Origin: Sorghum bicolor
Lineage: Eukaryota; Streptophyta; Magnoliopsida; Poales; Poaceae
Length of the DNA stretch: 64,000 nt
Direction: 5' to 3'
NCBI RefSeq assembly: GCF_000003195.3
Contig: NC_012871.2
Coordinates: 48,579,862 to 48,643,861, forward strand
The position numbers and the translations under genes are program-made. Below, piece by piece: positions 21,476 to 41,996 of the stretch (position 1 is its first letter; the number at the start of each line of letters is the position of its first letter). The notes beneath the pieces were generated by a model that was not told the origin of the DNA, did not search any database, and was given only the letters and a program-made list of their open reading frames with translations.

Positions 21476-22988
21476 TGTTGACACTAGCTAACACCACTTA
21501 GATACTAGGTTGTCATCCCTAGCATGGCGTCAGAGTGTACAAAGGTATTTATAAATGTAAAGGCTCTCTAGAAAATCATCTATTCTATCCGCAAGCGCAC
21601 AGATAAAACACCTCGTTGTAGCATTTCACCAGGATAAGTATTCCAGGTATCGTTATTTATAATTTTGCTCTAGGGATCTAAAGAAGATGGAATTAAATCA
21701 AGGGACAAAATCTATCAAGGCATAGACTAGAGATAAACTTGCAAGAACATGATTACTAAAGAGAAACTCGTCACACAGTCACTTACTTTAGCAGGGGGTA
21801 AACCATAAAGATAATGATAATAAAGTATAAGTTCATGGGTAGATAGCACAGCGATTAGAAAATAGACTACTCCTCATATATGTAGGTGATGTCGGATTAG
21901 CTAGAGAATGGATTCTAAGTTATCTACTAACTACTAAGTCATAATCTACTCTAGTTATCTACAAGATCATATATAGCATAAAAGACTCTTCATTCATGTA
22001 TAAGAAACATTGATAAAGTAAATCAGAGCATCACATGACTTACTCCACAATACCGGTTCTGCCTGTCCTATCAACGGAGGGTGGACTATATAAGAATCAA
22101 CGAAGCTGTCACTATCGCGAACTACCACACGACTCGGCCAATAGGATACATTTGCAGATAAATAACATCTAAGCACCACGCTCACATGTGATCTATCAAC
22201 TAACTCCCTCGCGACAAGAGCTAAGCGCTTTGCAAACTTATACATAAACTCATTATCAATTAGAACTATATCAAATATAGAACTAGAGCAAACTAAGAAC
22301 ATAATAATTAGAGACATAATGCAATTAGAACAATAGAATTAGAGAAAGATATGAATAATACCAATCTTTATTTCCGAAGATCCGAATCCAGAGCGTAGTG
22401 CTCTACTTCTCTAATTGCTATCTAATCAAACCTCTAAACTTGAAGGATTAGGGAGTAGCTAATTCTAATTCTCTATGGGAGAGAGATCTAAACCCTAACT
22501 TTGGTGGCTACCTCTGAATAATGATTTCTCCTCTCTCCTCCAGGGGCCAGGGGGTCTGGTTTTATAGTCCCCTCAAGTGAACGTGAGCCATTGGATCAAA
22601 CCGACATAGATTGTATGGTTTAGATTGATCCTTTAGGTCGGTGGAGAGTTGTCCCGAAGCAGAGTCCTGGTTGGCTTCCTGGCCAGGGCGGGCGCCCAAG
22701 GAGGGTGGGCGGCCGCCCAGCTCCCGAGCCCGAATCGCGTCCCGTTCGTTCCCGTGGCTTCTGGATCCTTCTAGATTGAGGAAAATTGCGCGGCACGTAA
22801 TTATCTCGTTGTAAACATGACATGTGGGCCTTCTCTCCATATTTTCTGATAAACCCCTGCAGAAATAGATAAACACCAAAACTCGTGGAATTCTGTCAGA
22901 TAAAACCCTAATTCTAGATGTTTGTTTCATATTGATCCTTTTCTATGTTTATTTGATTATTAATTTTAGTACTTAAGGACCGTCAACA
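21476..22988 (-). repeat. Family B 3' LTR
   Basis: 1513 bp, TGTTGACACT to ACCGTCAACA on the plus strand. Twin GC palindromes at 22686-22718 and a TATA box (TATAAAA on minus, 22560-22566). Confidence 0.9.
22686..22718 (-). promoter_or_regulatory. Twin GC palindromes, family B 3' LTR
   Basis: GGGCGGGCGCCC at 22686 and GGGCGGCCGCCC at 22707; starts 21 bp apart; TATA about 120 bp downstream on the minus strand. Confidence 0.6.
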
Positions 22989-24154
22989 AACTCTCCCAAG
23001 CTTACCCTTTGCTCGTCCCTGAGCAAATAACTAAACTCAGACGGATCAGGAGTTGCTTCAATGTTTTCTTTCCTGACAGGCACACATGCTTTTACATAAA
23101 AATTCTTCCAGATTAGAGTGAAGTGTTATGGAGTTTAGTACCTGCACTTAAATCTTAAGTAATCAAAAGACAAAATAGTTAAGTCAAGCACTATCCCTCT
23201 TGTCTATACTTCACTTTTGTTCTAGAGTTTTTCATAAGTTTTCAAAATAAAACTCAGAGTTCCCAGCAATGATTCTCTCAAGTCTCTCTATATGTGGTAT
23301 TTGTGGATCCTTACCATAATATCACTTACCTATAGCTAATAGAATAATTAAGTGGAGCTCATAGGAGTGGAAAACAGCTCATACATATGTTGTCTAATCG
23401 AGCCATGGATCCAAAGGAACTCAGCATATAATTAAATCAAGACGTGCATGTGTGATGGAGTAAATGATAGTGATGGTGAAAATGCATAAGTGATAATAAA
23501 ATTTACTTCTCATTGCTCCTCATATTGCTATCTCTCCTCTTCTTTGATCTTTGCTTTGGGAGAACATGGGCTATCTTTTTTTCCTCTCTTCTTCTTTTTT
23601 TTCAGGTGGGTAGTAGATACCCTTAATTCTACTGTCGGACACTTGTCCATTTTTTCCGCTCAAGTGGGCATCTTTGTACCCCTAATTCTACTTCGGACAC
23701 TTGTCCATTTTTACCTCTCATCTCACTCTTTTTCTTTCTTTTTCGAGGTTCCGGGCACTTGCCCCTTTTTATTTCCTCGCATATTTTTGCATAACCCATG
23801 CCTCTTCTGCATTGAATCTTTTTAGCGAGAGAATAACAATATTCGGGACAGTGAGTGATACTATTTTTAGCAATTTTAATGATTGGTGATGAATGCTGTG
23901 GTAGATGTGTGCAAGTGAATATCTTAATTTAACCACATGAAAAGCTCCTAAGGGTCTACACAGCTCGATCAAACTCAATGTGAATATAGTAAAAGATGTT
24001 ATAGCAAGTATGGCTGTGGTAGGTAGTTTTGTTATGCTAGGAACTCATCATGCGATTTGTAAGTTTTCAAAATAAATCTCCAGAACTTAGTGTAGTAGAA
24101 ACAAGATAAACAGTAGCTCAACTTTATATCATGCCTTTCTCTTACCTTGACTTT
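22989..24154 (-). other. Family B 3' non-coding region
   Basis: No gene. Pyrimidine-rich on plus (purine-rich on the element strand), starting with the polypurine tract. It has a duplicated ~30-bp unit (CTAATTCTACTGTCGGACAC and a close copy near 23680). A single-copy version is present in family C at about 40540, showing common descent of the two 3' ends. Confidence 0.7.
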
Positions 24155-27100
24155 AGTAACACCCTAGGTGTTAAGCATGCATTTAGTCCCCTCACAACAT
24201 GCATAAGCATCCTCATCAATCATAAGCATCACGAGCATGTCATTCTCTTCAAGTATGATTTTATGTGCATCATTTCATGAGTTTTAAACATGTTAAAAAT
24301 GTGATGCTTGCTTTAAAAATTGGGAAATATTCAAACTAGGTTGGTTTATGTGTAAGAAGAATTGAGAACATTTTTGTGCAATTTTTGGAGCCAGGGAAAT
24401 TGAGAAATGGAATTTATACAAAAATATCCAAAAAGAATTTATTTGAAAACCTAGAACTAGTTTTGTTTTGCAATTCAAATTCTATTGGGAATTTGATTTG
24501 GCTTATTAAAGCAAAGTTGTAGAGTTTTTATTTTGGAACAATTTTGTTTTTGGGAGCAAGAGGTGAAAATGCTTTTTGGCTGGTCCAAATAATTTTAGAA
24601 AGGAATTTGGAAAAAAAAATTCAAAAAAAAAGAAAGGGGGAGCTGTTCACTGGCGGGCCGGCGCCAACCAACCGGCCCAGCCAGCGAAGCCAGCCCAGGC
24701 CGACCGCACCGCGTCCACCCCCTCCCCGCGCGCGCTCGGACACGGCCGCGCCGCGCGCGCCCGACCGCGTCAGGCCGACGGCGCCGCGTGGACGGCATGC
24801 GCTGCTCGCCGGCGCCACGACCCCCCCCCCTCCGCTGCGGACAGCGCCACCTCCCTCGCCATTCTCTCCTCCACCCGGTGCGCGCCCCCTCGCTCTCTCT
24901 CGCGCTCTCCTGCCTCCTCTCCACGCGCACCGTGCCGCCGCTCGCCATTGGAGCTCCCCGAGCTCCGCTCGCCGTGTTCCCGGCACTCCGTCGCCTCTCC
25001 GAGCTCCGCATTCGTCTCCGCGTGCTCGGACGTAGTTTCTTCGCGCAGGTAAGCGGTTCTAGCGAGCCGAATCGCTCGCCGGAGAGTCCGCGGCCTCGCC
25101 GGAGCTCTCCGCGGCTTCGGCATCGCTGGTTTTCCCCCTCCCGAACCTCTCTTGCCTCGCTAGCGCGCGCATTATGGTCGTCGTGGCTCCCTGAGTCGCG
25201 AGAAGCCGCACTCGAGCGCTCTACCGGAGCGTGGTGGCCGGCACCGCTGCGGCAGCACCGCCGGTCCGCCATTGCCGGTGGCCAACTCGCTGTGCGGGGT
25301 TTCAGGGCGAGTAAAGGGGTGGGATCGAGTCGCAAGAGGGAGGCGAACGTGTTGGTGCCGTTGGTTCCGGCCGAGAGGCATCACCGGCGGCGAGCCGTCG
25401 TCGGGGATCCCCTCCCCTCTCGGTGTCCTGGCCAGCGGGCCCGGCTGGCAGGCGGGTCCGCTCGTCAGCGGCCGCGGGTGCACTGCACCGGGTGCACCTA
25501 GCAGGTCTCGGGGTGGATTTGATTTGTTTTCAGAAAAATAATTTCCAGGAAATGATTTAAATGTTCAAAAATCCATATCTTGATGAATATAGCTCCAAAA
25601 ATTGTGAAATAAATTTTGGTGTATTCCTTATTTCCAGATCTATAGCCTAGTATGTTTGCATGTCGTGACTAAGTAACTTTTCTGTGTAAGTATATTTAAT
25701 CCATGTTTTTGTCAAACTTGGAAAATGCATAGTAAACAAAATAGGGCTCTGAAAAATGTAAAATTTGTTTTGCTGACTCTGCATGTGTGTTTAATCACTG
25801 AGAAAATATTGTTACATATTATTTGGTGTATAAATGAATTTATGGTAATTTAAATTCTTGCATGGCAGTACTTTATGATTTTTAATAATTAAATGGGTCA
25901 TGCAATAAATCTGGAAAATTTTGTGGGTGTTTCTTATGATATTAGATAAATTGTAAAAATATGAAATCTGTTGTTTGACACTTATATCACAGTAGGGTGA
26001 TTATACTTGCCTTATCAATTAATCTTGTGATTTTTGTGGCCCAAAATAAGTAACCAAAAATTATGAAAAATTTACAGTAGAGTTTATGATTAGCTAGTAG
26101 TCTCCTGTAATTTTTCTGGAATTTATTGATGAACAGAATTGCATGTGATTTTTAATGGGCTTAGAAATGAATAAAGAAAATTATGAATGGTTGTGTATGT
26201 AGGTTGAATGGAATAAGTTGGGTTTGGTGTATCTTTGAAGCATCATGGGGGTTGCTAGTTGCATTTTAAAAAAAATATTTGTAGAAGAGAATGCAATAGA
26301 TGTTTAAACCAAGTGCCTGTTCTTGGATGATGTTGCATACCTTGTGATAAGCATGACCAAGTGTATCATCCATGCATCATGTCATGGCCCTTTGGTACTT
26401 TCTCATACAAGCATCCACTCGGGCATCTCGCACTCCACTCACAAGCACACATGCATCATACAGGCTCGCAGGAGAACGAGGTGGGACCCGAGGAGCCAGA
26501 GGAGATTCAGGAGCAGGAACCTCCGGAAGCACCGGAACCCGGAGAGGAACTGCAGGAGTGTCCGGATCACCGACCCAGCACGTTTGAGAAAGGCAAGCCC
26601 CGGAGCATTCTAAGTCTCCCTATTCTCGCTAACTTATATAAAGTGCTATACTTGTTCTACTGTATTGCATATTAAGTGATAGGAGTTGCCTGATACCGTT
26701 GCTGCATGAGTACTCCTTGTTATTCCTGCTCATTCAACTACCTTGTCCTATGTAGATAGGCACGGAGTCTATGCTTAGCTTGCTTAGTTCGGTAGAAGTC
26801 GGGTGATTCCCTGTCACCTGCGAGATATAGGTGGATACCTGCTTGATTAAGCATTGGATTGCTCGGGGAAAAGAATAACCAAGTGTGGAATGAATTTGGA
26901 GACCGGGCGGGGTCTTATGGTGGGTTGACCATGGTGCCCCTGCCTGTGTCGATTAAGGACCGATCGTTGACGGCCCTCTTGTCATGTTGAACGCATGCCC
27001 CACACTTAGCTGGAAGGATAAGTCGTTCCGACCGCGAAGCCTGAACACTATCCGGGCCGGGAATCGAGCCGCCATGCGCTGTATTGGTGATGGTTGAGGA

Positions 27101-28098
27101 GAACGACGAGGGCGCGGCGCGCAACCTTGGTATACCTTGGATACCTCGGTCGCCGGAACGGTCCTCGGGTACTGGCGGTGCCTGCCGAACCCGCGAATTG
27201 GTCCTGGATAGTGTAATACGGTGATCTGTAGCTCACTTGATCAGTGAGTGTGGTTTGTGTGGGGAATACCTCGCCAGCTGGTTAGAAATCGATTCGAATC
27301 GCCATCGCTCCTGGATAGTGAGCACTTGACATGAGCTTCGTCCTCGTAGTAAGGACTATGAAACACTTGGGTTATAATGATGAATGGTTTAGGAAATGCT
27401 ATGATGAGGTACTATCATAGTCTCATACTTGCTTGTAATAGCACAGGAGCAAACCTAGATAATAGGTAATGATACTTTCAACTTGAGCAGATTAAAAGAA
27501 GAAAATATTTATGTAGGTTAGGGAAATGAAACCTTGCGGTCTTTGCAAAATGGTTGTCAGCTACCCCACTAAATAGCCTTCATGATCCTTGATGAGTCTT
27601 TATTTTAAGTTTATGACGGGTAAGTCTAGCTGAGTACCTTCTCGTACTCAGGGTTCTATTCCCATGTTGTTTTGCAGATGGTCAAATGTACTATGGTTAT
27701 TGCATCCTCTGTCTGTACCCAGCTATGGGTGATGACTAGACCAAGGGCGATGGTCACTCCGTCTCTTCCTTTGCTTTTGTGGGAATGACCGAACTATGGC
27801 ACTGTATCAGACTTATCGTGTGTGTTGTAATTTCGAACTATGAAGCTTCCGCTATTTGAAGAACTTGGTTTGTAATAACTTAAGAACTCTGATGTAATTT
27901 ATGAATGTTGTAATCTGGATGTACTTGTGGATGGCGACCGCTAAACTGATTACGATCTTGGCTGTTATGCGATGTGTGGTTGAAATCCTTCGAGATTTCG
28001 CGGACTACCGGGATTATATGGGCTTAAGCCTGATGGTTTGACTATGCAAATGGTCACTGTTGGGCTTAATCTCTTATAATTTGGTCGGTTCTGTTACA
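24155..28098 (+). repeat. Family A 5' LTR (~3.9 kb)
   Basis: Unusually long LTR. 24640-25500 is very GC and CpG rich, the rest AT rich. Starts (T)GTAACACCCTAGG and ends CTGTTACA. Long ORFs on both strands in the GC block come from base composition, not coding. Confidence 0.9.
26451..26675 (+). other. Conserved acidic mini-ORF inside family A LTR (copy 2)
   Basis: Same 74-codon frame as at 1812-2036, differing at about five residues and with both silent and replacement changes. Frame is open further upstream in this copy. Confidence 0.25.
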
Positions 28099-28100
28099 GC

Positions 28101-28119
28101 TGGCATCGGAGCAAGGTTT
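28101..28119 (+). other. Primer binding site, initiator Met tRNA (family A)
   Basis: TGGCATCGGAGCAAGGTTT two bases after the LTR matches the complement of the plant tRNA-iMet 3' end except at two positions. Confidence 0.85.
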
Positions 28120-28921
28120 AGCGAGTTACTGTTCATAAGTACGTTTTAAACAAAAATCTAAACCGGTTTAGAAAAGATTTTATTAATTAATTAATAATGA
28201 TCAAGGTGTTAAACTAAGTTTTGGGAAAATTATCTAGTGTGCCATGGTCATATCCTTTATGCCCAGCTAAGGACTCTAAGGTGGCTAGATAAGTACTGAC
28301 TTGGGGGTTAATGCATCATATTTTTATTTCGTCGCTCATACGGCGTGCAATAGTATGAGTGCCATTCATTTGAGTGGTAATGTATGGATCAATTCTTCCT
28401 CTACGCCATGGTAAGTGGGAGTTGTGAGCGCATGATCGGATACACTGCCGGTCTAGGGAAGTGTTGTCAGGTGCTGTGTCATGCACACATGTTGGTGTGT
28501 CTTGGGAACAGTACCGCATGCTGGGAATTCCGTCCTGAGAGGCGATGCCGTCATTAGGGCGATGATGTGGGTAGTAACACGTCACATGCATGGACGGGTG
28601 TCTGTGTATGTGAAGTGTATAGTTTTAAATTTTGTTCTGCACGACCATACTGTGGGTGGGCTGAAATGAGTTTTCTGCAGGTACCCTAACCACGTTCTCG
28701 CTTAGAACGCTAGTTACGTAATGAGCGAACGTTGTATGCCACCGCGTATACCGCTTAGTGTTAACCTTTGTTTTCCAAGTTTGTGAGATCGTAAGTTCGT
28801 ACATGCATCATGTGCATTTCATATCATTGCTTACTTTCCCCTTAATTTAATCTGTCCCAATTTTAAATGAAATAAATAAAGGTAATCCTCGCTCTTACCC
28901 ACGGTATTCCATTTGCAGCAG
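28120..28921 (+). other. Family A leader, non-coding
   Basis: About 800 bp without a supported ORF. It ends in a pyrimidine-rich stretch and TTTGCAG just before the ATG of the H3-like ORF, resembling a splice acceptor. A possible donor is TTTCTGCAG/GTACCC near 28680. Confidence 0.5.
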
Positions 28922-29965
28922 ATGGCACGCACTAGGCTCACCGCTCGCAAGTCCACTGGTGGGCGGGCCCCTCGCCGTCCGTTGGCAGCTAGGAGCTCGC
29001 GACATAAGAGCAAGTTCTTAGAGGAGTTTGGGATGCCCACTTTGCTTTGGAGGGTGCTCAGTTCGATGGGGTATCCCGAAGGAAGGGAGCCTCACTACTA
29101 TTGGGATAAGGAGCCGCTTGGTGACGAGACCCTGGTGGGGATCGAGGCAGTTGTCCCTACCAGTGGAGGAGACCCTGCTTGGGGCGGTTGGGTGTACGAG
29201 TCCCAAGGTGTCACGCCTTTCCACGGTGCCAGCAGGGCAGCTTTCGCAGTTTTGAGGGACCTCATGGAGAGGTTTCCACAGGAGCTGGCCCACGCCTTCG
29301 CTGGGGTGTTTCCCCGGGGTGACCCTTACGCTTCGGTGTGGGATCAGTCCGAGGTGAATGCTCTAGAGAGGAGTGCGGATGAGGACCAGCACAGTGACAG
29401 TGCAGCTATGAGTGCCATGTACGCGTTGATGAAGACCTATGGAGGCCTGGAGCGTTGTTTGGGTCGCTTGTCCGGGTCTCTTCTCACCGTCCAGGATGAG
29501 AAGCGTCAGTTGCAGCGTGAGTTTGACTCTGAGGTTGAGAGGCTACAGGCAGAGTTGGCTCGTGTGACCAGAGAGAGAGACCAGGCAGTCCAGAAGAACA
29601 GTGAGCTGAGTCAGGACCTACTTGCAGTGCGAGAGCAGAAGGACAGGGTGACTACTGCTCACAGGAACTGCGAGTGCATGCTAGTCCATGTGCTTGGACA
29701 GAGGAATGAAGCCTGGCACGAGGAGGACACTTTGAGGGCTCGACAGCTAGAGCTAGAGCAGCAGCTAGCTAATGCTGAGGAGTACAATGAAAACTTGCAT
29801 GAGGAGATCCACCAGCTGCATAACCAGCTCCACCCTCACCACCTGCCTGGAGCAGCGGAGCAAGACTCTGAGGACGAGATGGACGCGGATCCCGAGATAG
29901 GAGCAGCTGCTAGTGGTGATGAAGATGAGGATGGCTCCGGCATGGACAGTGACCATAGCGAGTAG
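28922..29965 (+). CDS. Retroelement ORF with histone H3-tail-like N terminus, coiled coil and acidic tail
   Basis: 347 residues from the ATG at 28922 (an upstream in-frame TTG is not needed). Without Met, residues 1-17 read ARTRLTARKSTGGRAPR against H3 ARTKQTARKSTGGKAPR, and L20, A21 and R26 also match: 17 of 28 positions. R replaces K at 4, 14, 18 and 23. K9, S10, T3, T6, T11, R2, R8 and R17 are kept. There is no histone fold after it. Residues ~33-150 look globular (Trp/Tyr rich, PHYYWDKEPLG, WGGWVYESQG). About 185-305 form a long heptad-rich coiled coil. 311-347 is an acidic tail (EQDSEDEMDAD ... GDEDEDGSG). It lies upstream of gag on the same strand, outside the polyprotein, and is intact while pol has a stop. 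Not a standard retroelement protein; function unknown. Inference: a chromatin-interacting accessory protein whose tail could be modified at K9. Confidence 0.85.
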   Translation: MARTRLTARKSTGGRAPRRPLAARSSRHKSKFLEEFGMPTLLWRVLSSMGYPEGREPHYYWDKEPLGDETLVGIEAVVPTSGGDPAWGGWVYESQGVTPFHGASRAAFAVLRDLMERFPQELAHAFAGVFPRGDPYASVWDQSEVNALERSADEDQHSDSAAMSAMYALMKTYGGLERCLGRLSGSLLTVQDEKRQLQREFDSEVERLQAELARVTRERDQAVQKNSELSQDLLAVREQKDRVTTAHRNCECMLVHVLGQRNEAWHEEDTLRARQLELEQQLANAEEYNENLHEEIHQLHNQLHPHHLPGAAEQDSEDEMDADPEIGAAASGDEDEDGSGMDSDHSE

Positions 29966-30283
29966 ATGCTAGGGCTCTAGAGCTAGTCTTTCCTCTTTTG
30001 TGATGTATGTTGCATGGCATGTCATGTACTTTTGGATCTGGGCTGTGTAAGACTTCATGAGTTGATGCTGAAAGTCCAGTGTATGTATGCTGGCAAGTTG
30101 GATGTACGCGAACCTTATTGCGTGAATGTTAAGTAATCTGTTAGTGATGTTGTGCGTGGATGATGAGTTGTTGTGCCTCTGTTTATTGTGTGAATTTATT
30201 CCCTCAGTAAATTCAGTATGGCACGATTTTACACATTTTCTACCGGTTGATGGCAACTCCTAACGATTGCTTATCATTGGCGT
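29966..30283 (+). other. Spacer between H3-like ORF and gag
   Basis: 318 bp, stops in the frames examined. It ends TGGCGTATGCAG/ATGGTG, again an acceptor-like TGCAG directly at the next start codon, so gag-pol may be expressed from a spliced or alternative RNA. Confidence 0.45.
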
Positions 30284-33200
30284 ATGCAGATGGTGCAAAC
30301 ACGTGGCGGGGGTAACAGCAATCTGGGTCTTGGAGCAGGTACATCCGGAGGTGGGGCTCAACGGAATGAGGACCGAGCACCAACACCGCCACCACCACCA
30401 CCTCCCCCGTACACTGCGGATGTGTTTTTCGCGCAGTTTCTGGGAAGCCAACGCAACATGGAACAGATGCAGCGCAACATGGAAGAAGCTTTGCGCAACA
30501 TAGCTGACAACACCCGTCGTGGAGATAATCAGGGTGGCCGGGAGGTCAACCAGTACAGTTCGTTCAAGGACTTCATGGATACCAAGCCACCAATCTTTAA
30601 GGAGGCCTTGGAACCGCTCGAAGCAGATGAGTGGATCAACACCATGGAGCAGAAGTTTCGTCTTCTCCGAATGATAGAAGAACTCAAGGCTGAGTATGCG
30701 GCACATCAGTTGCAAGGACCTGCTGGGATTTGGTGGTCCCATCACCGTACCACCTACCCAGAAGGGACACCAATCACCTGCAACCGCTTCACCACCGCTT
30801 TCCGGGGAAATTACATTCCTCCTGGTGTGGTTGAAATGAAGGTTGGGGAGTTCATGAGGCTGTCCCAAGGGACAAAGTCTGTGAAGGAGTATCTACACGC
30901 TTTCAACAATCTCGCTCGCTATGCCCCTGAGTTTGTGAACACGGAGGCTAAGAAGATTGCTAGTTTCCAGAGAGGCTTGAATCCAAAGATGCTGAAGACC
31001 ATGGGTACAGGGGCTAGAGCTACTTTCAATGCCTATATCAGTGACTGTCTGACCCAAGAGAACAATAACAACAACTACAGTGCATCCAAGTCACGTAAAA
31101 GGGCTTTTGAAGCAGGATCATCCCAGTCCAGGGCACCAGTGGCAGGGCGACAGCAGTATCGTCCTCCTGCCCCGGGTGCTAGGTTCCGACCGCCGCAGAG
31201 AAGGAACACCGGGCATCCAACCCAGCAGAAGCCATACAAGGTGGCGATAGCTCCTGCCAAGCCAAAGGCCATTCAAGCCGCAGCACCTGCCGCCAACAAT
31301 GCGCCCAAGGGTCCGTGCTATAACTGCCACAAGATGGGGCACTTTGCTAAGGAATGTCCCTACCCCAAAAGGCAGCAGCCAACCTATCCAGCTCGTGTGC
31401 ATCATACCTCGATTGAGGAAATCCCGGAAGGAGAACCGGTAACAGCTAGTATGTTTTCTATCAACCAACATCTTGCAGTTGTTTTGTTTGATTCTGGATC
31501 ATCGCATTCATTCATGAGCCAAGCATTTGCACAAAAGCATAATCAACCAGTTACAGATCTGGGCTATGGCTACCGCATCAGCTCAGCAGGGGCAGATGTG
31601 TTGACCAATAGAGTGGTCCGAGGGGCAACCCTGGGTATAAGTGGCCGAGTTTTTCGGGTAAATCTAGTGGTCATGCCTGGGTTAGTTTTGGATGTTATCA
31701 TGGGCATGAACTGGATGAGAGAATGGGATGCTGTCATAGATACTGGAAAGAGGATGTTATCTCTCAGAGAACCACAGGGCAGTAACTCTTTTCAAGTACC
31801 TCTGCCCCGTCGTCTTGACTTTGCTAGCATCTCCTGTGCTACGCACGTGGTCCCTTTACCGCAGATTCCAGTAGTCTGTGAGTTCCCTGATGTGTTTCCC
31901 GAGGAGTTACCAGGACTTCCCCCAGATAGGGAGGTAGAGTTTGCAATCGAGTTGATACCAGGTACAGCACCAATATCTAGAAGGCCGTACCGGATGCCAC
32001 CAAACGAACTCGCAGAGCTGAAGAAGCAACTGAAGGAGTTACTAGAAAAAGGGTTCATCCGGTCAAGCTCGTCGGAATGGGGTTGTCCAGCGTTGTTTGT
32101 GAAAAAGAAGGATCAATCGTTGCGCATGTGCGTGGACTATCGTCCACTCAATGCAGTGACAATCAAGAATAAGTATCCCCTGCCAAGGATTGATATCCTG
32201 TTTGATCAGTTATCCAAGGCCAGAGTGTTTTCTAAGATAGATTTGAGATCTGGGTATCACCAAATCAAGATTCGTCCGCAAGATATCCCAAAGACTGCTT
32301 TTTCCACTAGATATGGGTTGTATGAGTATCTTGTCATGTCCTTTGGGTTGACAAATGCTCCTGCATACTTTATGTATCTGATGAATTCAGTCTTTATGCC
32401 GGAATTGGATAAGTTTGTTGTAGTGTTTATCGATGATATCCTGGTATACTCAGAAAATGAGCAAGATCACGCCGAGCATCTGAAAATCGTGCTGACACGG
32501 TTACGAGAGCATCAGTTATATGCCAATTTCAGCAAGTGTGAATTCTGGTTGAAGAAAGTTCCTTTCCTAGGGCACATTCTATCTGAAGAAGGAATTGCTG
32601 TGGATCCATCAAAAGTGCAGGAAGTCATGGACTGGAAGGCACCAACTTCGGTCTCGGAAGTTAGAAGTTTTCTTGGTCTGGCCGGGTATTATCGTCGTTT
32701 TATACCTGACTTCTCCAAGATTGCTAAGCCAATGACAAGTTTGCTACAAAAGGATCATAAGTTTGTCTGGACGGAAGGGTGTGAGTTAGCCTTCCGCACC
32801 TTGCGAAAGTTGCTAACCACTGCTCCCGTTCTGGCACAACCTAATATAGAGAAGCCTTTTGATGTGTTTTGTGACGCATCGAAGAGTGGCCTGGGGTGTG
32901 TGTTGATGCAAGATGGCAGGGTGATAGCTTATGCTTCCCGACAGTTGAGAAAGCATGAAGTCAACTATCCAACGCACGACCTTGAGTTAGCAGCCGTGGT
33001 ACATGCTTTGAAGATCTGGAGACATTATCTGCTAGGAAATAAGTGTCACATTTACACCGATCACAAGAGTTTGAAGTACATCTTCACTCAGTCCGAGCTG
33101 AATATGAGGCAACGACGGTGGTTAGAGCTAATCAAGGATTATGACCTGGAAGTTCACTATCATCCAGGCAAAGCTAATGTGGTCGCAGATGCTTTGAGTC

Positions 33201-34762
33201 GCAAACCGCACTATCAAATGGTTCAACCGTTGTTTGAAGATGGGTTCAATCTTATGCATCCTGAGGTCTTATGTCATATACAACTCAGTTGTTCACTCGA
33301 GAGTCAAGTCATTGAAGGTCAGAAAACAGACAAGGGTATTTTCCACATCAAAGAGAAGATCAAAGATGACCCAAAGACACAGTTTCGGGTTGATGAGAAG
33401 GGGGTACTGTGGTTTCAACAGCGGTTAGTGGTCCCGAAAGATCGGGAGTTGAAGAATCGCATCATGGATGAAGCTCATCTCTCTAAGCTTTCTATTCATC
33501 CTGGCAGTAGCAAAATGTATCAAGATCTAAGGCCCCACTTTTGGTGGACCAAGATGAAGAAAGAAATAGCCGCCTACGTGGCCCGTTGTGACACGTGTTG
33601 CAGAGTTAAGGCCATCCATATGAAACCTGCAGGTCTGTTACAACCGTTATCAGTTCTGGAGTGGAAATGGGAAGAGGTCAGTATGGACTTTATCACCGGC
33701 TTACCGACAACCAGGAAGGGGAATGACTCGATTTGGGTAATCATAGATCGATTAACCAAGTCGGCTCATTTCATTCCAGTCAAGAACACATACAGACCTC
33801 CCGAGTATGCTGATATATATATGGCTGAGATCGTCAAGTTGCATGGTATCCCCAAAACCATCATATCGGATACAGGACCGCAGTTCACCGCTCACTTCTG
33901 GGAGCGCATGCATAAGAGTTTGGGGACCAGCCTGATAAGAAGCACGGCGTATCATCCCCAGACTTCAGGCCAAACAGAGAGGCTAAACCAAGTGTTAGAA
34001 GATATGCTGAGGGCCTGTGTGCTATCATCCAAGGGATCGTGGGAATCGTGGTTACCTTTGGCTGAGTTCTCCTACAATAATAGTTATCAAGAGAGCATCA
34101 AGATGGCCCCGTTCGAAGCTTTGTATGGTCGAAGATGTAGAACTTCGTTAAACTGGGTGGAACCTGGGGAAAGAAGATACTATGGTATCGACTTTGTGAA
34201 TGATGCCGAGAAAAAGGTGCAGATTATACAGCAACATATGCAAGCAGCGCAATCACGGTAGAAGAGTTATGCTGACAAGAGGAGAAGGCCGCTTGAGTTC
34301 AAAGTAGGCGACTATGTGTATCTCAAGGTTACGCCAATGAAGAAAGTTCAACGTTTCCGAGTTCGAAGCAAGCTTGCACCCAGATATGTGGGACCATACC
34401 AAGTGCTAGAAAGGAAAGGCCCAGTGGCCTACAAGGTTCAGTTACCTGAGGAGATGAGCTCGATCTTTCCGGTCTTCCATGTGTCGCAACTACGGAAAAG
34501 TTTGAAGGTGCCGGAGCAAAGAATCGAACCTCGAGGAATCAAGATAAAAGCAGACCTAGAGTATAAAGAGCAGCCAGTGGGGATTGTGGATACCAAGGAG
34601 CGAGTAACCCGAAACAGAGTTGTTCGAACATACAAGGTGGTGTGGAGTCATCATGACGATAGGGATGCCACTTGGGAAACAGAGGATTACTTAAAAACAG
34701 TTTATCCAAAATTTCACAAGAAATGGTTAGTAACCCAAAATCTCGGGACGAGATTTCCCTAA
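30284..34762 (+). pseudogene. gag-pol: Chromovirus gag-pol polyprotein with C-terminal chromodomain, one nonsense codon
   Basis: A single frame of 1493 codons broken once by TAG at 34259-34261. Residue positions: gag with CX2CX4HX4C knuckle [14 protein letters not shown] (~345); protease [10 protein letters not shown] (~402); RT with [10 protein letters not shown] (~714); RNase H with FCDASKSG (~862) and TDHKSL; integrase zinc finger (HLSKLSIH ... CDTCC) and catalytic D1135, D1196 and E1232, spaced DD35E. After the stop come the integrase C-terminal GPY-type region and, from ~1425, a chromodomain-like segment (YKVVWSHHDDRDATWETE). The stop lies between the integrase core and the GPY/chromodomain part, where relatives have a codon such as CAG. 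Start: ATG CAG ATG GTG follows TGCAG; either ATG could serve. Readthrough or an intact sister copy would be required for mobility. Confidence 0.93.
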
Positions 34763-34773
34763 GGGGGGAAGGG
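34761..34773 (+). other. Polypurine tract of family A element
   Basis: AAGGGGGGAAGGG, one base before the 3' LTR start TGTAACACCC. Confidence 0.9.
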
Positions 34774-34774
34774 C

Positions 34775-37700
34775 TGTAACACCCTAGGTGTTAAGCATGC
34801 ATTTAGTCCCCTCACAACATGCATAAGCATCCTCATCAATCATAAGCATCACGAGCATGTCATTCTCTTCAAGTATGATTTTATGTGCATCATTTCATGA
34901 GTTTTAAACATGTTAAAAATGTGATGCTTGCTTTAAAAATTGGGAAATATTCAAACTAGGTTGGTTTATGTGTAAGAAGAATTGAGAACATTTTTGTGCA
35001 ATTTTTGGAGCCAGGGAAATTGAGAAATGGAATTTATACAAAAATATCCAAAAAGAATTTATTTGAAAACCTAGAAATAGTTTTGTTTTGCAATTCAAAT
35101 TCTATTGGGAATTTAATTTGGCTTATTAAAGCAAAGTTGTAGAGTTTTTATTTTGGAACAATTTTGTTTTTGGGAGCAAGAGGTGAAAATGCTTTTTGGC
35201 TGGTCCAAATAATTTTAGAAAGGAATTTGGAAAAAAAAATTCAAAAAAAAAAGAAAGGGGGAGCTGTTCACTGGCGGGCCGGCGCCAACCAACCGGCCCA
35301 GCCAGCGAAGCCAGCCCAGGCCGACCGCGCCGCGTCCACCCCCTCCCCGCGCGCGCTCGGACACGGCCGCGCCGCGCGCGCCCGACCGCGTCAGGACGAC
35401 GGCGCCGCGTGGACGGCATGTGCTGCTCGCCGGCGCCACGACCCCCCCCTCCGCTGCGGACAGCGCTACCTCCCTCGCCATTCTCTCCTCCACCCGGTGC
35501 GCGCCCCCTCGCTCTCTCTCGTGCTCTCCTGCCTCCTCTCCGCGCGCACCGTGCCGCCGCTCGCCATTGGAGCTCCCCGAGCTCCGCTCGCCGTGTTCCC
35601 GGCACTCCGTCGCCTCTCAGCGCCTCCTTCCACCTCTCCGAGCTCCGCATTCGTCTCCGCGTGCTCGGACGTAGTTTCTTCGCGCAGGTAAGCGGTTCTA
35701 GCGAGCCGAATCGCTCGCCGGAGAGTCCGCGGCCTCGCCGGAGCTCTCCGCGGCGTCGGCATCGCTGGTTTTCCCCCTCCCGAACCTCTCTTGCCTCGCT
35801 AGCGTGCGCATTATGGTCGTCGTGGCTCCCTGAGTCGCGAGAAGCCGCACTAGAGCGCTCTACCGGAGCGTGGTGGCCGGCACCGCTGCGGCAGCGCCGC
35901 CGGTCCGCCATTGCCGGTGGCCAACTCGCTGTGCGGGGTTTCAGGGCGAGTAAAGGGGTGGGATCGAGTCGCAAGAGGGAGGCGAACGTGTTGGTGCCGT
36001 TGGTTCCGGCCGAGAGGCATCACCGGCGGCGAGCCGTCGTCGGGGATCCCCACCCCTCTCGGTGTCCTAGCCAGCGGGCCCGGCTGGCAGGCGGGTCCGC
36101 TCGTCAGCGGCCGCGGGTGCACTGCACCGGGTGCACCTAGCAGGTCTCGGGGTGGATTTGATTTGTTTTCAGAAAAATAATTTCCAGGAAATGATTTAAA
36201 TGTTCAAAAATCCATATCTTGATGAATATAGCTCCAAAAATTGTGAAATAAATTTTGGTGTATTCCTTATTTCCAGATCTATAGCCTAGTATGTTTGCAT
36301 GTCGTGACTAAGTAACTTTTCTGTGTAAGTATATTTAATCCATGTTTTTGTCAAACTTGGAAAATGCATAGTAAACAAAATAGGGCTCTGAAAAATGTAA
36401 AATTTGTTTTGTTGACTCTGCATGTGTGTTTAATCACTGAGAAAATATTGTTACATATTATTTGGTGTATAAATGAATTTATGGTAATTTAAATGCTTGC
36501 ATGGCAGTACTTTATGATTTTTAATAATTAAATGGGTCATGCAATAAATCCGGAAAATTTTGTGGGTGTTTCTTATGATATGAGATAAATTGTAAAAATA
36601 TGAAATCTGTTGTTTGACACTTATATCACAGTAGGGTGATTATACTTGCCTTATCAATTAATCTTGTGATTTTTGTGGCCCAAAATAAGTAACCAAAAAT
36701 TATGAAAAATTTACAGTAGACTTTATGATTAGCTAGTAGTCTCCTGTAATTTTTCTGGAATTTATTGATGAACAGAATTGCATGTGATTTTTAATGGGCT
36801 TAGAAATGAATAAAGAAAATTATGAATGGTTGTGTATGTAGGTTGAATGGAATAAGTTGGGTTTGGTATCTTTGAAGCATCATGGGGGTTGCTAGTTGCA
36901 TTTTAAAAAAAATATTTGTAGAAGAGAATGCAATAGATGTTTAAACCAAGTGCCTGTTCTTGGATGATGTTGCATACCTTGTGATAAGCATGACCAAGTG
37001 TATCATCCATGCATCATGTCATGGCCCTTTGGTACTTTCTCATACAAGCATCCACTCGGGCATCTCGCACTCCACTCACAAGCACACATGCATCATACAG
37101 GCTCGCAGGAGAACGAGGTGGGACCCGAGGAGCCAGAGGAGATTCAGGAGCAGGAACCTCCGGAAGCACCGGAACCCGGAGAGGAACTGCAGGAGTGTCC
37201 GGATCACCGACCCAGCACGTTTGAGAAAGGCAAGCCCCGGAGCATTCTAAGTCTCCCTATTCTCGCTAACTTATATAAAGTGCTATACTTGTTCTACTGT
37301 ATTGCATATTAAGTGATAGGAGTTGCCTGATACCGTTGCTGCATGAGTACTCCTTGTTATTCCTGCTCATTCAACTACCTTGTCCTATGTAGATAGGCAC
37401 GGAGTCTATGCTTAGCTTGCTTAGTTCGGTAGAAGTCGGGTGATTCCCTGTCACCTGCGAGATATAGGTGGATACCTGCTTGATTAAGCATTGGATTGCT
37501 CGGGGAAAAGAATAACCAAGTGTGGAATGAATTTGGAGACCGGGCGGGGTCTTATGGTGGGTTGACCATGGTGCCCCTGCCTGTGTCGATTAAGGACCGA
37601 TCGTTGACGGCCCTCTTGTCATGTTGAACGCATGCCCCACACTTAGCTGGAAGGATAAGTCGTTCCGACCGCGAAGCCTGAACACTATCCGGGCCGGGAA

Positions 37701-38735
37701 TCGAGCCGCCATGCGCTGTATTGGTGATGGTTGAGGAGAACGACGAGGGCGCGGCGCGCAACCTTGGTATACCTTGGATACCTCGGTCGCCGGAACGGTC
37801 CTCGGGTACTGGCGGTGCCTGCCGAACCCGCGAATTGGTCCTGGATAGTGTAATACGGTGATCTGTAGCTCACTTGATCAGTGAGTGTGGTTTGTGTGGG
37901 GAATACCTCGCCAGCTGGTTAGAAATCGATTCGAATCGCCATCGCTCCTGGATAGTGAGCACTTGACATGAGCTTCGTCCTCGTAGTAAGGACTATGAAA
38001 CACTTGGGTTATAATGATGAATGGTTTAGGAAATGCTATGATGAGGTACTATCATAGTCTCATACTTGCTTGTAATAGCACAGGAGCAAACCTAGATAAT
38101 AGGTAATGATACTTTCAACTTGAGCAGATTAAAAGAAGAAAATATTTATGTAGGTTAGGGAAATGAAACCTTGCGGTCTTTGCAAAATGGTTGTCAGCTA
38201 CCCCACTAAATAGCCTTCATGATCCTTGATGAGTCTTTATTTTAAGTTTATGACGGGTAAGTCTAGCTGAGTACCTTCTCGTACTCAGGGTTCTATTCCC
38301 ATGTTGTTTTGCAGATGGTCAAATGTACTATGGTTATTGCATCCTCTGTCTGTACCCAGCTATGGGTGATGACTAGACCAAGGGCGATGGTCACTCCGTC
38401 TCTTCCTTTGCTTTTGTGGGAATGACCGAACTATGGCACTGTATCAGACTTATCGTGTGTGTTGTAATTTCGAACTATGAAGCTTCCGCTATTTGAAGAA
38501 CTTGGTTTGTAATAACTTAAGAACTCCGATGTAATTTATGAATGTTGTAATCTGGATGTACTTGTGGATGGCGACCGCTAAACTGATTACGATCTTGGCT
38601 GTTATGCGATGTGTGGTTGAAATCCTTCGAGATTTCGCGGACTACCGGGATTATATGGGCTTAAGCCTGATGGTTTGACTATGCAAATGGTCACTGTTGG
38701 GCTTAATCTCTTATAATTTGGTCGGTTCTGTTACA
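34775..38735 (+). repeat. Family A 3' LTR
   Basis: 3961 bp, nearly identical to the 5' LTR. About 20 extra bases near 35617-35638 and a shortened C run are the main differences. Confidence 0.92.
37088..37312 (+). other. Conserved acidic mini-ORF inside family A LTR (copy 3)
   Basis: Identical in translation to copy 2, as expected from LTR synthesis. Confidence 0.25.
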
Positions 38736-38829: not shown

Positions 38830-40063
38830 TGTTGATATTTGGGAACGCAATAAGGAATTGATCCGCAAGCGCACGGATATCGGTGAGCACTTCACCCGGG
38901 AGGTTATCCAGAGTATCGTATTTATTTTTTTACCACTAGGAGAAAGAGTGCATCTGACTAACTGGTCTATTACTACTAACCTTTAGGCACAAAGAATGTC
39001 TTTCGATGTGAGTGATAAATAGAGAAGACTGCAACCGTAGTCTCCTTCTAACCTTGGTAAGGATGATCTACTGTTCTAATGGGGAGGCTAACGGAATCTA
39101 GACACCACAAAGGATGTTCAACCCGCACCTATAAACCCTATCCTTCCTGCTAACGAGATGTGATCTACAAAGGTAGCTCGGAATTGTCACGTTCCTCACT
39201 ACTACCACGGTCCAGCTAGTCAGGGAATATCTATGAGTACCCCAGCCTAAACACCACGTTTACGCCAGCAATGATTACTCTAAACTCTACGCGAAGAGAT
39301 TAAAGTAAACTCATAAACCATAAGAACAATAAAACAAGAACTTACTAGAATTTAGAAGTCGAATTACTGAACAATCCTAGGAGCAAGCTTCGGGTTAGGA
39401 GAACTTGATCCCGCAGGTACAAGCTTGGAGTAGACACCGACAGGCCGCGCTTCCTCCACTCTACACCTCCACTCTATCTCTCTCAATCTAGTAGAAACTA
39501 GAAGATCTATTTCTACCTTACATTGATTGCTAAGCCTAAAAAGAAATATTAATTAGAGAAGAGGTTTTCCTTCGAGGGCACCCCTCAGTATCTATGATAA
39601 TTTCTTCATGTCTTCTCCAGGGGCCAGGGGGCCTTGCTTATATAGTCCTCCCCTTCTATGCGTTTTTGGGTCGATAGGCGAGGTGGTACTATGTTTTTCT
39701 TGATCCAATAGGTCGGTGGAATATCCCGAGCGAAAGAGTCCTGATTTGGCTCCAACAGGGGGGCGGGCGCCCAGGCTACCAGGGCGGGCGCCCTGGGCCT
39801 GGCCCAGTTTCGCCTCCGCTTCGGTCTCGTGGCTTCTGGAGTCTTCTAGATGATGAAAAATTACGCGATGCGTTGATATCTCTATGTAATCCCGACATGT
39901 GGGCCTTTCTTCCTTATTTCCTGATAACCCCCTGCAGAAATAGATAAACAACAAAACTCGTGGAATTCTATCAGATCAAACCCTAATTCTAGGTGATGGT
40001 TGCATATTGGTCCTTTCTCTTGTTTATTTGATAATTAAAATTGATACTTAAGAACCGTCAACA
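38830..40063 (-). repeat. Family C 3' LTR
   Basis: 1234 bp. U3 is clearly related to family B U3 (shared AGAAATAGATAAACA, CTCGTGGAATTCT, and the CCGTCAACA end), while the U5 side is different. Twin GC palindromes at 39761-39793, TATA (TATATAA on minus) near 39638-39644. Confidence 0.92.
39761..39793 (-). promoter_or_regulatory. Twin GC palindromes, family C 3' LTR
   Basis: GGGCGGGCGCCC at 39761 and again at 39782; starts 21 bp apart; TATA about 115 bp downstream on minus. Confidence 0.6.
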
Positions 40064-41366
40064 AATACCTCCATACTTAGGCTTTTACTCGTCCTCGAGA
40101 AAAGGATGGTTAAGAAAAATATCTGGCGTAAAACATTTTAAAGCATTCTCTTTATAATTGCAGGGTGTTAAAAATTCACTGTGTACCATAGTCTGGGATG
40201 TATATGGTTAAAAGTAAAGATCCTTTCTTCTCAATCCTGCCACTTGGAGCTTTTGTATATTTTTGAAAGAAAGTTAGCATACCTTTTTATCCTCATAGGT
40301 TCTCTCAGATCACTCATTATCTTTTATATATATCTCACTGAGGCTGTTTTAATTTGCAAAAATTCTCAAGCATACTTACTTTGCATTTATTGCCTGATCA
40401 AAACGGGATCCGAGGAGGGGAATGTCATACTCTTAGATCAAAGACTTTGGAAATTAAAAACTTTGTCAACTCTTGCTGGCATATTGCTTATTAGAGGGAC
40501 CATGGGCTATCATTTTTTTTAAAGTGGATACCGAGGTACCCCTAATTCTACTGCCGGACACTTGTCCATTTTTCTGCGAGGTTGTCGAGCACTTGCTCCT
40601 TTTTATTTCCTCGAAATATTTCTATTTTTGCATAGCCCATGCCTCTAATGCAATAATACTTCGGAAGAGTGAATCTTACTGAAATAATGTCTTGATCTTA
40701 GGAGCATGATAAATCTCTCAACAAGGGTCTAACTCATTTTGAACAAACTCAATACAGAGCAGATAGCTTTTATAATCATAATTAATATTTTCAGTTTTAT
40801 CAGGCATATAAAACACTGAGGATGGTAGATAGAAATTTGAATATTTTGAAATAAATTCTCCAAGCAACAATGATATCAAGAATAAGAAACTCATACTCTA
40901 TCATCACATATTCCAATTGACTTAAATAACACAGGGTTTTAAAATGATTTTATAATAATTGCAAGTTTTCAAGAAATATCACAGGTTGAGATTAATCATG
41001 ATTAGAAATATTTTAATCCTTTTATTTTATCATGTCGGAAATAGTAATCTGCATAGAATAAATGTATGTGTAAAGTAAAGTGTGCAAAGTGTGTACCTGA
41101 ATTGAGGAGTGGTGTAGTCGGAGTGTGTTTAGCATGTCGAGGGATCTCCCCCATACTTGTTTTCTGCTTTCTTGCACAAAAATAAAGTAGAGACACACAA
41201 GACATAATAATAATAATAATAATACTCTTTATTGATCTTGAGGCATTTAGTACAAAAGACTGATAGCAAACTGATAATAATAGTAAACTGATGATAATAG
41301 CAAACTTAAACCGAATTTAAAGATAAATAACTAAGATGCATTGCCTCAAGGTCTAATCTAGATAAC
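40064..41366 (-). other. Family C 3' non-coding region
   Basis: No gene in 1.3 kb. Contains the CTAATTCTACTGCCGGACAC segment shared with family B, a short ATA/AAT microsatellite near 41206-41222, and otherwise AT-rich sequence. ORFs on plus at 40181-40682 have no recognisable features. Confidence 0.6.
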
Positions 41367-41996
41367 TTAACGGCGCTCTAATTCCTTGATCTTCTTGTTG
41401 GCACTGGCAAGATCCTGCCTAAGGCCTAGTATAATAGTGTTGTGGTTAGAGAGTTGCCTAGTAAGGGAATTAATCGAGGACTGGAGGTCTATGATAACTC
41501 TATCTAGCCTGCGAACTTCCTCATCAATATCCATTATAGTCTTGCGACGCTTGGGAGGTGTCTCAAAAGCATTGAGAGAGTGCTTTGGGGCTGCCTTTGG
41601 AGGGACGAAACGGACTTTGGCTGCTCTAATCCCTTCAAAGTAAGGCCTTTCCTCCTCCGTAGTGTAGCGAATACTGCTGATCTCGCCGCTCCGGTTGGTC
41701 TTGACTCCAACGACCCTCTCATTGGGTCTAGGTGGAAGGATCCTTGTGCCGGTTGGCACCTCGATGGTGGTCTTCGTCTTGGATGATGATCCTTTAAGGA
41801 GTAGGGGTTGTGGTGGTGCGGTGAGAACTGGTTGAGCATGGTAAGATTGGGCGGAGCTGCGTTGGCGTAATGGCATGGCTTCTAGCTGACGCTCTGTGTT
41901 GGCCGGGACGAGAGCACGGGCATCGGGGTCTTCCACAGGCTCCATGTTGAGGTTGAAGGGGACGACTTCCCAATCGTCGTGGTACTTGTCAGCCAT
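41367..41996 (-). CDS. Extra ORF of family C: 209-residue protein with C-terminal coiled coil
   Basis: Intact ORF starting MADKYHDDWEVVPFNLNMEP, placed after integrase where Athila elements can carry an envelope-like gene. It has no signal peptide or membrane segment. The middle is Pro/Arg rich with basic patches (PPKRRKTIMD could act as a nuclear signal), and residues ~154-209 form a heptad-rich helix (LDRVIIDLQSSINSL..). It has its own upstream promoter-like sequence. Not recognised as a known family. It stays open although pol in the same element is broken. It could be a nucleic-acid or gag-associated accessory protein; this is inference. Confidence 0.6.
   Translation of the reverse strand: MADKYHDDWEVVPFNLNMEPVEDPDARALVPANTERQLEAMPLRQRSSAQSYHAQPVLTAPPQPLLLKGSSSKTKTTIEVPTGTRILPPRPNERVVGVKTNRSGEISSIRYTTEEERPYFEGIRAAKVRFVPPKAAPKHSLNAFETPPKRRKTIMDIDEEVRRLDRVIIDLQSSINSLTRQLSNHNTIILGLRQDLASANKKIKELERR

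Follow-up and report, generated by a model that had tools for sequence, protein, structure and literature searches.

A histone H3 tail-like sequence opens ORF0 of sorghum Ty3/gypsy retrotransposons and may act as a decoy for H3K9 silencing

In a 64,000-nucleotide stretch of the Sorghum bicolor genome (contig NC_012871.2, positions 48,579,862 to 48,643,861; hereafter the window), a 14.6-kb long terminal repeat (LTR) retrotransposon, located at 24156-38735 of the window, carries an extra open reading frame (ORF) upstream of gag, ORF0, whose protein opens like the N-terminal tail of histone H3. The ORF0 protein begins MARTRLTARKSTGGRAPRRPLAAR, which after the Met reads ARTRLTARKSTGGRAPRRPLAAR. 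The new element here is the H3 N-terminal tail on a retrotransposon ORF; ORF0 itself, and histone mimicry in viruses, are already known. Judged by its sequence, ORF0 fits a histone mimic, that is, a non-histone protein with an H3-tail sequence. H3K9 methylation is a central silencing mark for plant transposons, and we give roughly even odds (a probability of about 0.5) to the reading that ORF0 is a decoy or bait for the host enzymes and readers of H3K9 methylation, shielding the element from silencing.

A first-pass annotation of this DNA had proposed that a retrotransposon ORF ahead of gag opens with a mimic of the H3 tail that is joined to an otherwise different protein, ends before any histone fold and is very unlikely to have arisen by chance. 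The proposal is borne out by structure-database matches, by shuffles and by the pattern across the genome. Its match counts were reproduced exactly: without the Met, from which tail residues are counted here, ORF0 agrees with H3 at 16 of residues 1-21 and at 17 of residues 1-28. In a phmmer search of PDB, the best sequence matches were H3 tails (best E 2.9e-4, query residues 1-24), and 300,000 composition-keeping shuffles of residues 1-23 matched H3 at a mean of 2.9 and a maximum of 11 positions, against 16 of 23 observed (z 8.5). The likeness ends past residue 23, the next 16 positions matching at 2/16 in the window protein and at 0-3/16 behind the other ORF0 tails, and no histone-fold Pfam match was obtained at E up to 1. 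The remainder of the protein forms a separate conserved family and carries a predicted domain resembling the double-stranded RNA-binding domain (dsRBD), a feature beyond the first-pass annotation. An H3 pseudogene was rejected as an explanation, since ORF0 lacks the histone fold and its remainder is a conserved family of its own. One genuine H3 pseudogene was found, at L039.

An ATG-anchored codon pattern for MARTxxTARK occurs at 714 places in the 709-Mb genome, and the reversed pattern at none; 100 of the 714 were individually placed, covering C1 and C2 below 42.41 Mb. About 12 places are, by sequence, H3 genes or the pseudogene. Lysine stands at position 4 in 50 places, which, sorted by 32-nt sequence with only some read at greater length, comprise 30 of class C, 11 H3-gene-like, 5 of family E, 2 A-like, 1 of family F and 1 H3 pseudogene. 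Five ORF0 families thus carry the tail in one genome (A, B, C, E and F). Family A, the window's own, was scored at 117 places of 3294 candidates with identities of 97-100%. The ORF0 of family B has 155 amino acids and no dsRBD-like part; that of class C has 324 and starts MARTKWTARKR; that of family E has 349, starts MARTKQTARKSTGGRAPRGQLAPR and in each of its five copies equals H3 across residues 1-13; and family F is represented by one broken copy. Overall identity between A and E is about 42%, and in an hhalign comparison of two ORF0 classes the sole aligned stretch was residues 1-17 (E 1.5e-4, probability 52%).

The tail also appears when copies are collected without reference to it. A tail-less query, P0009, scored 126 places, of which 16 fall within range of the placed pattern matches, and the tail was present in 16/16 of these copies recovered via the non-tail part (matched by eye), 15 with the exact pattern and one with A7 changed to T; intact copies without the H3-like start, which the first-pass annotation had named as evidence against its reading, were not found among them. 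Six more copies, picked for their shortened frames, keep residues 1-23 and have their stops further downstream, and the internally deleted copy L056 retains the tail. The family of P0009 itself was not found in the genome, as the best 126 scored matches are 54-57% identical, the same level as family A, and many of these places coincide with those of the family A search. A query of residues 1-45 alone found only P0004 (12 candidates), itself without residues 1-19. As a side observation, P0061 of Miscanthus floridulus, annotated as an RGA3 disease resistance protein, is a nucleotide-binding site (NBS)-type protein that ends in the class C ORF0 start MARTKQTPRKR, and is perhaps an annotation chimera.

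Two whole-protein searches returned 63 homologous proteins (42 + 21). An H3-like start was present in 26 and absent in 37, at a threshold of 6 of the first 11 positions, which mildly favours positions 1-10, including K9, and not 14, 18 or 23. Many of the 37 look fragmentary or begin at an internal Met (by eye); moreover, P0001 and P0023 lack the tail as annotated, yet near-identical DNA in this genome encodes it, so a tail-less start can be a gene-calling effect. Among the 24 distinct tails, K9 is kept in all 24, K4 in 23 (R in the other) and R8 and R2 in 21 and 20; A7 is kept in 19 and S10 in 15, and lysine is found at positions 14, 18 and 23 in none. Families A and B have R at position 4, which leaves K9 as the sole lysine among the first 27 residues. 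Across diverged families the tail is fixed for K9 and devoid of K14, K18 and K23, a pattern suggesting direct action of the elements on the H3K9 mark.

Between families, few stretches of ORF0 are as conserved as the tail. Families A and E are identical at 18/23 tail positions and at 122/313 of the rest (p 2.5e-4), and only 3 of 301 sliding windows of tail size reach that identity, namely the tail and two others, whose first residues are 31 and 32. For A against P0011 the figures are 17/23 and 146/296 (p 0.019), with 13/273 windows as high. The tail differences between A and E are mostly silent (proportions of synonymous and nonsynonymous differences, pS 0.60 and pN 0.16). Within families, the variable tail codons divide into silent-only and replacement as 8:1 (E), 4:1 (A) and 7:1 (B), against 26:30, 73:38 and 21:14, respectively, in the rest of ORF0; the codon test of tail against rest gives p 0.028 for E, 0.66 for A and 0.23 for B, so that E alone is significant, and the pooled p of 0.019 becomes 0.083 without family B. 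The pooled pN/pS is lower in the tail than in the rest for E (0.04 vs 0.28) and B (0.05 vs 0.16), and runs in the opposite direction for A (0.11 vs 0.07). The three tail replacements sit at H3 positions 18, 19 and 22. Sampling bears on these figures: the 30 family A copies are those with the highest protein scores; the B and C copies were chosen by tail pattern; and only E is unpicked, comprising all 5 high-identity copies of the whole-protein search. Neutral drift of the tail codons, the other outcome that the first-pass annotation had set against its reading, is opposed less firmly than the first, by the mostly silent changes within families, whose pooled value weakens without B, and by the between-family tail identity. 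Constraint on residues 1-17 is well supported between families and moderately supported within them.

If ORF0 is indeed a decoy, the Met would be removed under the ordinary Met-excision rule, exposing Ala1; K9 of the tail would be methylated by SUVH-type enzymes; and paired tails on a coiled-coil dimer would either titrate readers (ADCP1 or CMT3, for example) or recruit them. The plant HP1-like reader ADCP1 touches H3 at R2, K4 and K9me2, makes no contact with A7, R8 or S10 and leaves unmodified H3 unbound (PMC6318295). The tail variants agree with these contacts in part, K9 being fixed, position 4 being K or R, and A7 and S10 being freer. Two points count against ADCP1 as the reader. R8 is kept as well as R2 though ADCP1 does not contact it, and an enzyme or reader that depends on R8 and K9 is hence as likely a target; and the K4R change that families A and B carry weakens the case for this reader. 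The odds of a decoy are unchanged by this because a decoy does not require ADCP1 as its reader.

The remainder of ORF0 bears on what else such a protein could do. The fold predicted for residues 37-123, alpha-beta-beta-beta-alpha, agrees with solved dsRBDs, and in structure comparison the nearest folds are domains of DRB7.2, DCL4 and HYL1; ribosome hibernation factors and YcaO reach a similar Z among the matches listed. No dsRBD profile in Pfam matched ORF0 at E up to 1, and the domain is for that reason named only dsRBD-like. The dsRNA-binding motif of dsRBDs, KKxAK, is not evident by eye in ORF0, which reads TPFHGASRAAF where the second long helix begins. Because of this, and because the nearest folds include dsRBDs of the DRB7.2:DRB4 and DCL4:DRB4 complexes, protein contact is likelier than RNA contact, and the dsRBD-like part would bind silencing proteins rather than RNA. 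The long predicted helix that follows is likely a coiled coil and, if it forms a dimer, would present paired tails. Both ORF0 classes were modelled with the same layout of tail, dsRBD-like fold and helix. Short ORF0 forms were also seen (L031-L035, L044, L045; P0026-P0035, P0037-P0041), with the H3-like tail and C-terminal parts, the dsRBD-like domain being missing in the alignment. A tentative extension, which we consider less likely than not, is a two-armed anti-silencing protein of grass chromoviruses, in which an H3-tail mimic locked to K9 would sequester both H3K9 enzymes and readers and the dsRBD-fold arm would engage DCL/DRB small-RNA proteins. If true, this protein would attack both arms of plant transposon silencing and would help explain the success of chromoviruses in grasses.

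A different use of the same tail is as a targeting tether: it would dock ORF0, with the particle or integration complex, on H3-tail readers of heterochromatin and so guide integration, without opposing silencing. Most of the aromatic cage is reported to be absent from the type II chromodomains of plants, for which no partner has been identified (PMC6317226), so an alternative targeting device would be useful; for the same lack of cage residues (PMC3350952, PMC6317226), the element's own integrase chromodomain was set aside as the reader of the tail. The 714 pattern places and the residue counts of the 24 tails suit a tether equally, but nothing in the analysis connects ORF0 to integrase or particles, and we regard this use as doubtful.

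Still less likely is a basic tail that serves nuclear import or nucleic-acid binding only, with no chromatin role. The H3 tail itself can serve as a nuclear import signal, and the ORF0 tail remains basic in the families read. However, the non-basic residues A1, T3 and T6 are retained as strictly as the basic ones (23, 22 and 23 of 24), which would not be expected of a basic patch alone; none of the 24 tails has lysine at 14, 18 or 23, and the match begins at residue 1.

The origin of the tail raises a third alternative, that it is a relic of exon capture, acquired with the opening coding exon of some H3.3 gene and surviving by descent without function. Two H3.3 genes, L040 and L052, have a first coding exon that stops exactly after K23, the next opening with AARKSAPTTGG, and the class A match likewise stops at residue 23. 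An acceptor-like CAG abuts the ATG of L040, and not that of L052. In ORF0, a YAG abuts the ATG in 5/5 family representatives, one copy each (including L033, L036, L041 and L047), though individual copies deviate, for example L012 and L032; for comparison, such a YAG directly precedes 37 of the 1365 ATGs that the window contains. Moreover, CAG abuts the likely gag ATG in 4/4 families examined, one copy each (L033, L036 and L041 again among them), a count that is not blind as, for C and E, the gag ATG was selected from a pair of YAG|ATG candidates according to the reading downstream. These sites suggest that two alternatively spliced messages may be made from the element RNA. Comparison by eye of the 45 nt upstream of the ATGs in the H3.3 genes and ORF0 gave no clear likeness except the acceptor. 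The exon boundary suggests that the tail may have been captured from one H3.3 exon, an origin that would be compatible with a decoy. Survival without function is made very improbable by the between-family differences, many of them silent and few of them replacements, and by the usual retention of residues 1-9 only in class C. Lastly, chance or a composition artefact, for which the shortness of the segment and its richness in R and A could be invoked, was rejected and has a negligible probability, since the shuffle maxima for families A, B and E (11-12/23 each, 300,000 shuffles) compare with 16, 16 and 19 observed, and the 714 pattern matches with 0 in the reversed control.

The features of the element are collected in Table 1. 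The LTR pair is 98.9% identical, with 20 mismatches in 3964 aligned columns (24156-28098 vs 34776-38735), which at a grass substitution rate of 1.3e-8 would put the age of the element at about 0.2 million years. No matching pair for a target-site duplication was seen by eye at the element ends. The Pfam order between the LTRs (gag, protease, reverse transcriptase [RT], RNaseH, integrase) is that of Ty3/gypsy. On the frame map a single in-frame stop breaks the integrase region, and the chromodomain match (PF00385 Chromo), which sits past the stop, is weak (E 3.5e-4, 20.9 bits against a curated cut-off of 25.1). In the frame 34316-34762, the Tekay motif (K/R)-x-(L/T)-R-x-(k/r) and the conserved TWE, as defined in PMC3350952, were found by eye as RVTRNR and ATWETE, the longer motif EEXTWEXE being matched only in part; the element is likely a grass chromovirus.

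Table 1. Positions in the window of the retrotransposon, its reading frames and the predicted parts of ORF0 (pLDDT, predicted local distance difference test score).
Feature	Positions	Strand	Basis or remark
5' LTR	24156..28098	+	3.9 kb
Splice-acceptor-like TTGCAGCAG abutting ORF0 ATG	28913..28921	+	putative acceptor
ORF0	28922..29965	+	347 amino acids; ATG 28922, TAG 29963-29965; between 5' LTR and gag
H3-like tail, Met + residues 1-23	28922..28993	+	K9 sole lysine within residues 1-27
Predicted dsRBD-like domain, residues 37-123	29030..29290	+	structure prediction
Predicted long helix, residues 159-303	29396..29830	+	block pLDDT 91-98 over residues 181-300
Acidic C-terminus, predicted disordered, residues 304-347	29831..29962	+	sequence; pLDDT mostly <50
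Splice-acceptor-like TATGCAG abutting gag ATG 30290	30283..30289	+	
gag-protease-RT-RNaseH-integrase frame	30290..34261	+	Pfam domains and frame map; closed by in-frame stop in integrase region
Remaining integrase frame, SH3-like and chromodomain parts	34262..34762	+	PF24626 E 1.6e-22; PF00385 weak
3' LTR	34776..38735	+	found by LTR-LTR comparison

Around and within the element, three further observations were made. A direct repeat of 370 bp (79% identity) has one copy on each side of the element, at 22625-22990 and 39700-40065, and perhaps marks the ends of an older element hosting a nested insertion. Both LTRs (24544-25501, 35126-36140) contain long ORFs overlapping on opposite strands. An ORF of 209 amino acids lies at 41367-41996 on the minus strand.

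Among animal proteins, those with a SNAG domain are non-histone host proteins offering an H3-like segment to a histone enzyme, and we know of no relation of SNAG- or EZHIP-type mimics to retroelements. EZHIP-type animal H3 mimics (PMC12713659) resemble ORF0 in showing a non-histone, H3-like stretch to a histone enzyme; they, too, are host proteins. A fungal hAT DNA transposon with a captured H3 (PMC6710886) is closer in that it multiplies an H3-derived sequence, as the ORF0 element does. There, however, H3 coding sequence was captured and the copies are reported to be inactivated by repeat-induced point mutation (RIP), whereas in ORF0 the tail alone is fused to another protein and the frame is open. 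The viral histone mimics, among them influenza H3N2 NS1 (C-terminal ARSK), adenovirus VII and SARS-CoV-2 ORF8 (ARKS) (PMC10208167), share with ORF0 a parasite protein bearing an H3-tail-like motif around a modifiable lysine; the role of ORF8 is disputed (PMC10833455). Their motifs span 4-5 residues, in contrast to the 16-19 of 23 residues that match from residue 1 in ORF0 families A, B and E, across retrotransposon copies.

The closest comparison is with the ORF0 already described from the grass elements Retrosat2, RIRE3, RIRE8, Sorsat2 and ZMsat2 (PMC3485330), with which the present one shares an extra ORF upstream of gag-pol and LTRs of about 3 kb or more. In that account ORF0 is restricted to grasses and fast-evolving, and hydrolase, transferase or transporter roles were inferred from models (PMC3485330). 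The H3 tail and dsRBD-like fold differ from this, a comparison made by description, the word "histone" occurring 0 times in the main text of PMC3485330. The LTR termini given there for RIRE8 and Retrosat2, TGTCACACCC...GGGCGTGACA, are not matched by those here, GTAACACCC...TGTTACA, which are similar but different. Among the literature matches listed, a full-text set with subscription papers and preprints mostly outside it, there was no report of an H3-like tail in a retrotransposon ORF. A decoy would give a testable function to the ORF0 proteins of grass retrotransposons, for which no role has been settled since they were first described, and the families would offer naturally occurring H3-tail variants from which the important tail residues can be read. 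Plant transposons would then join animal viruses as users of histone mimicry.
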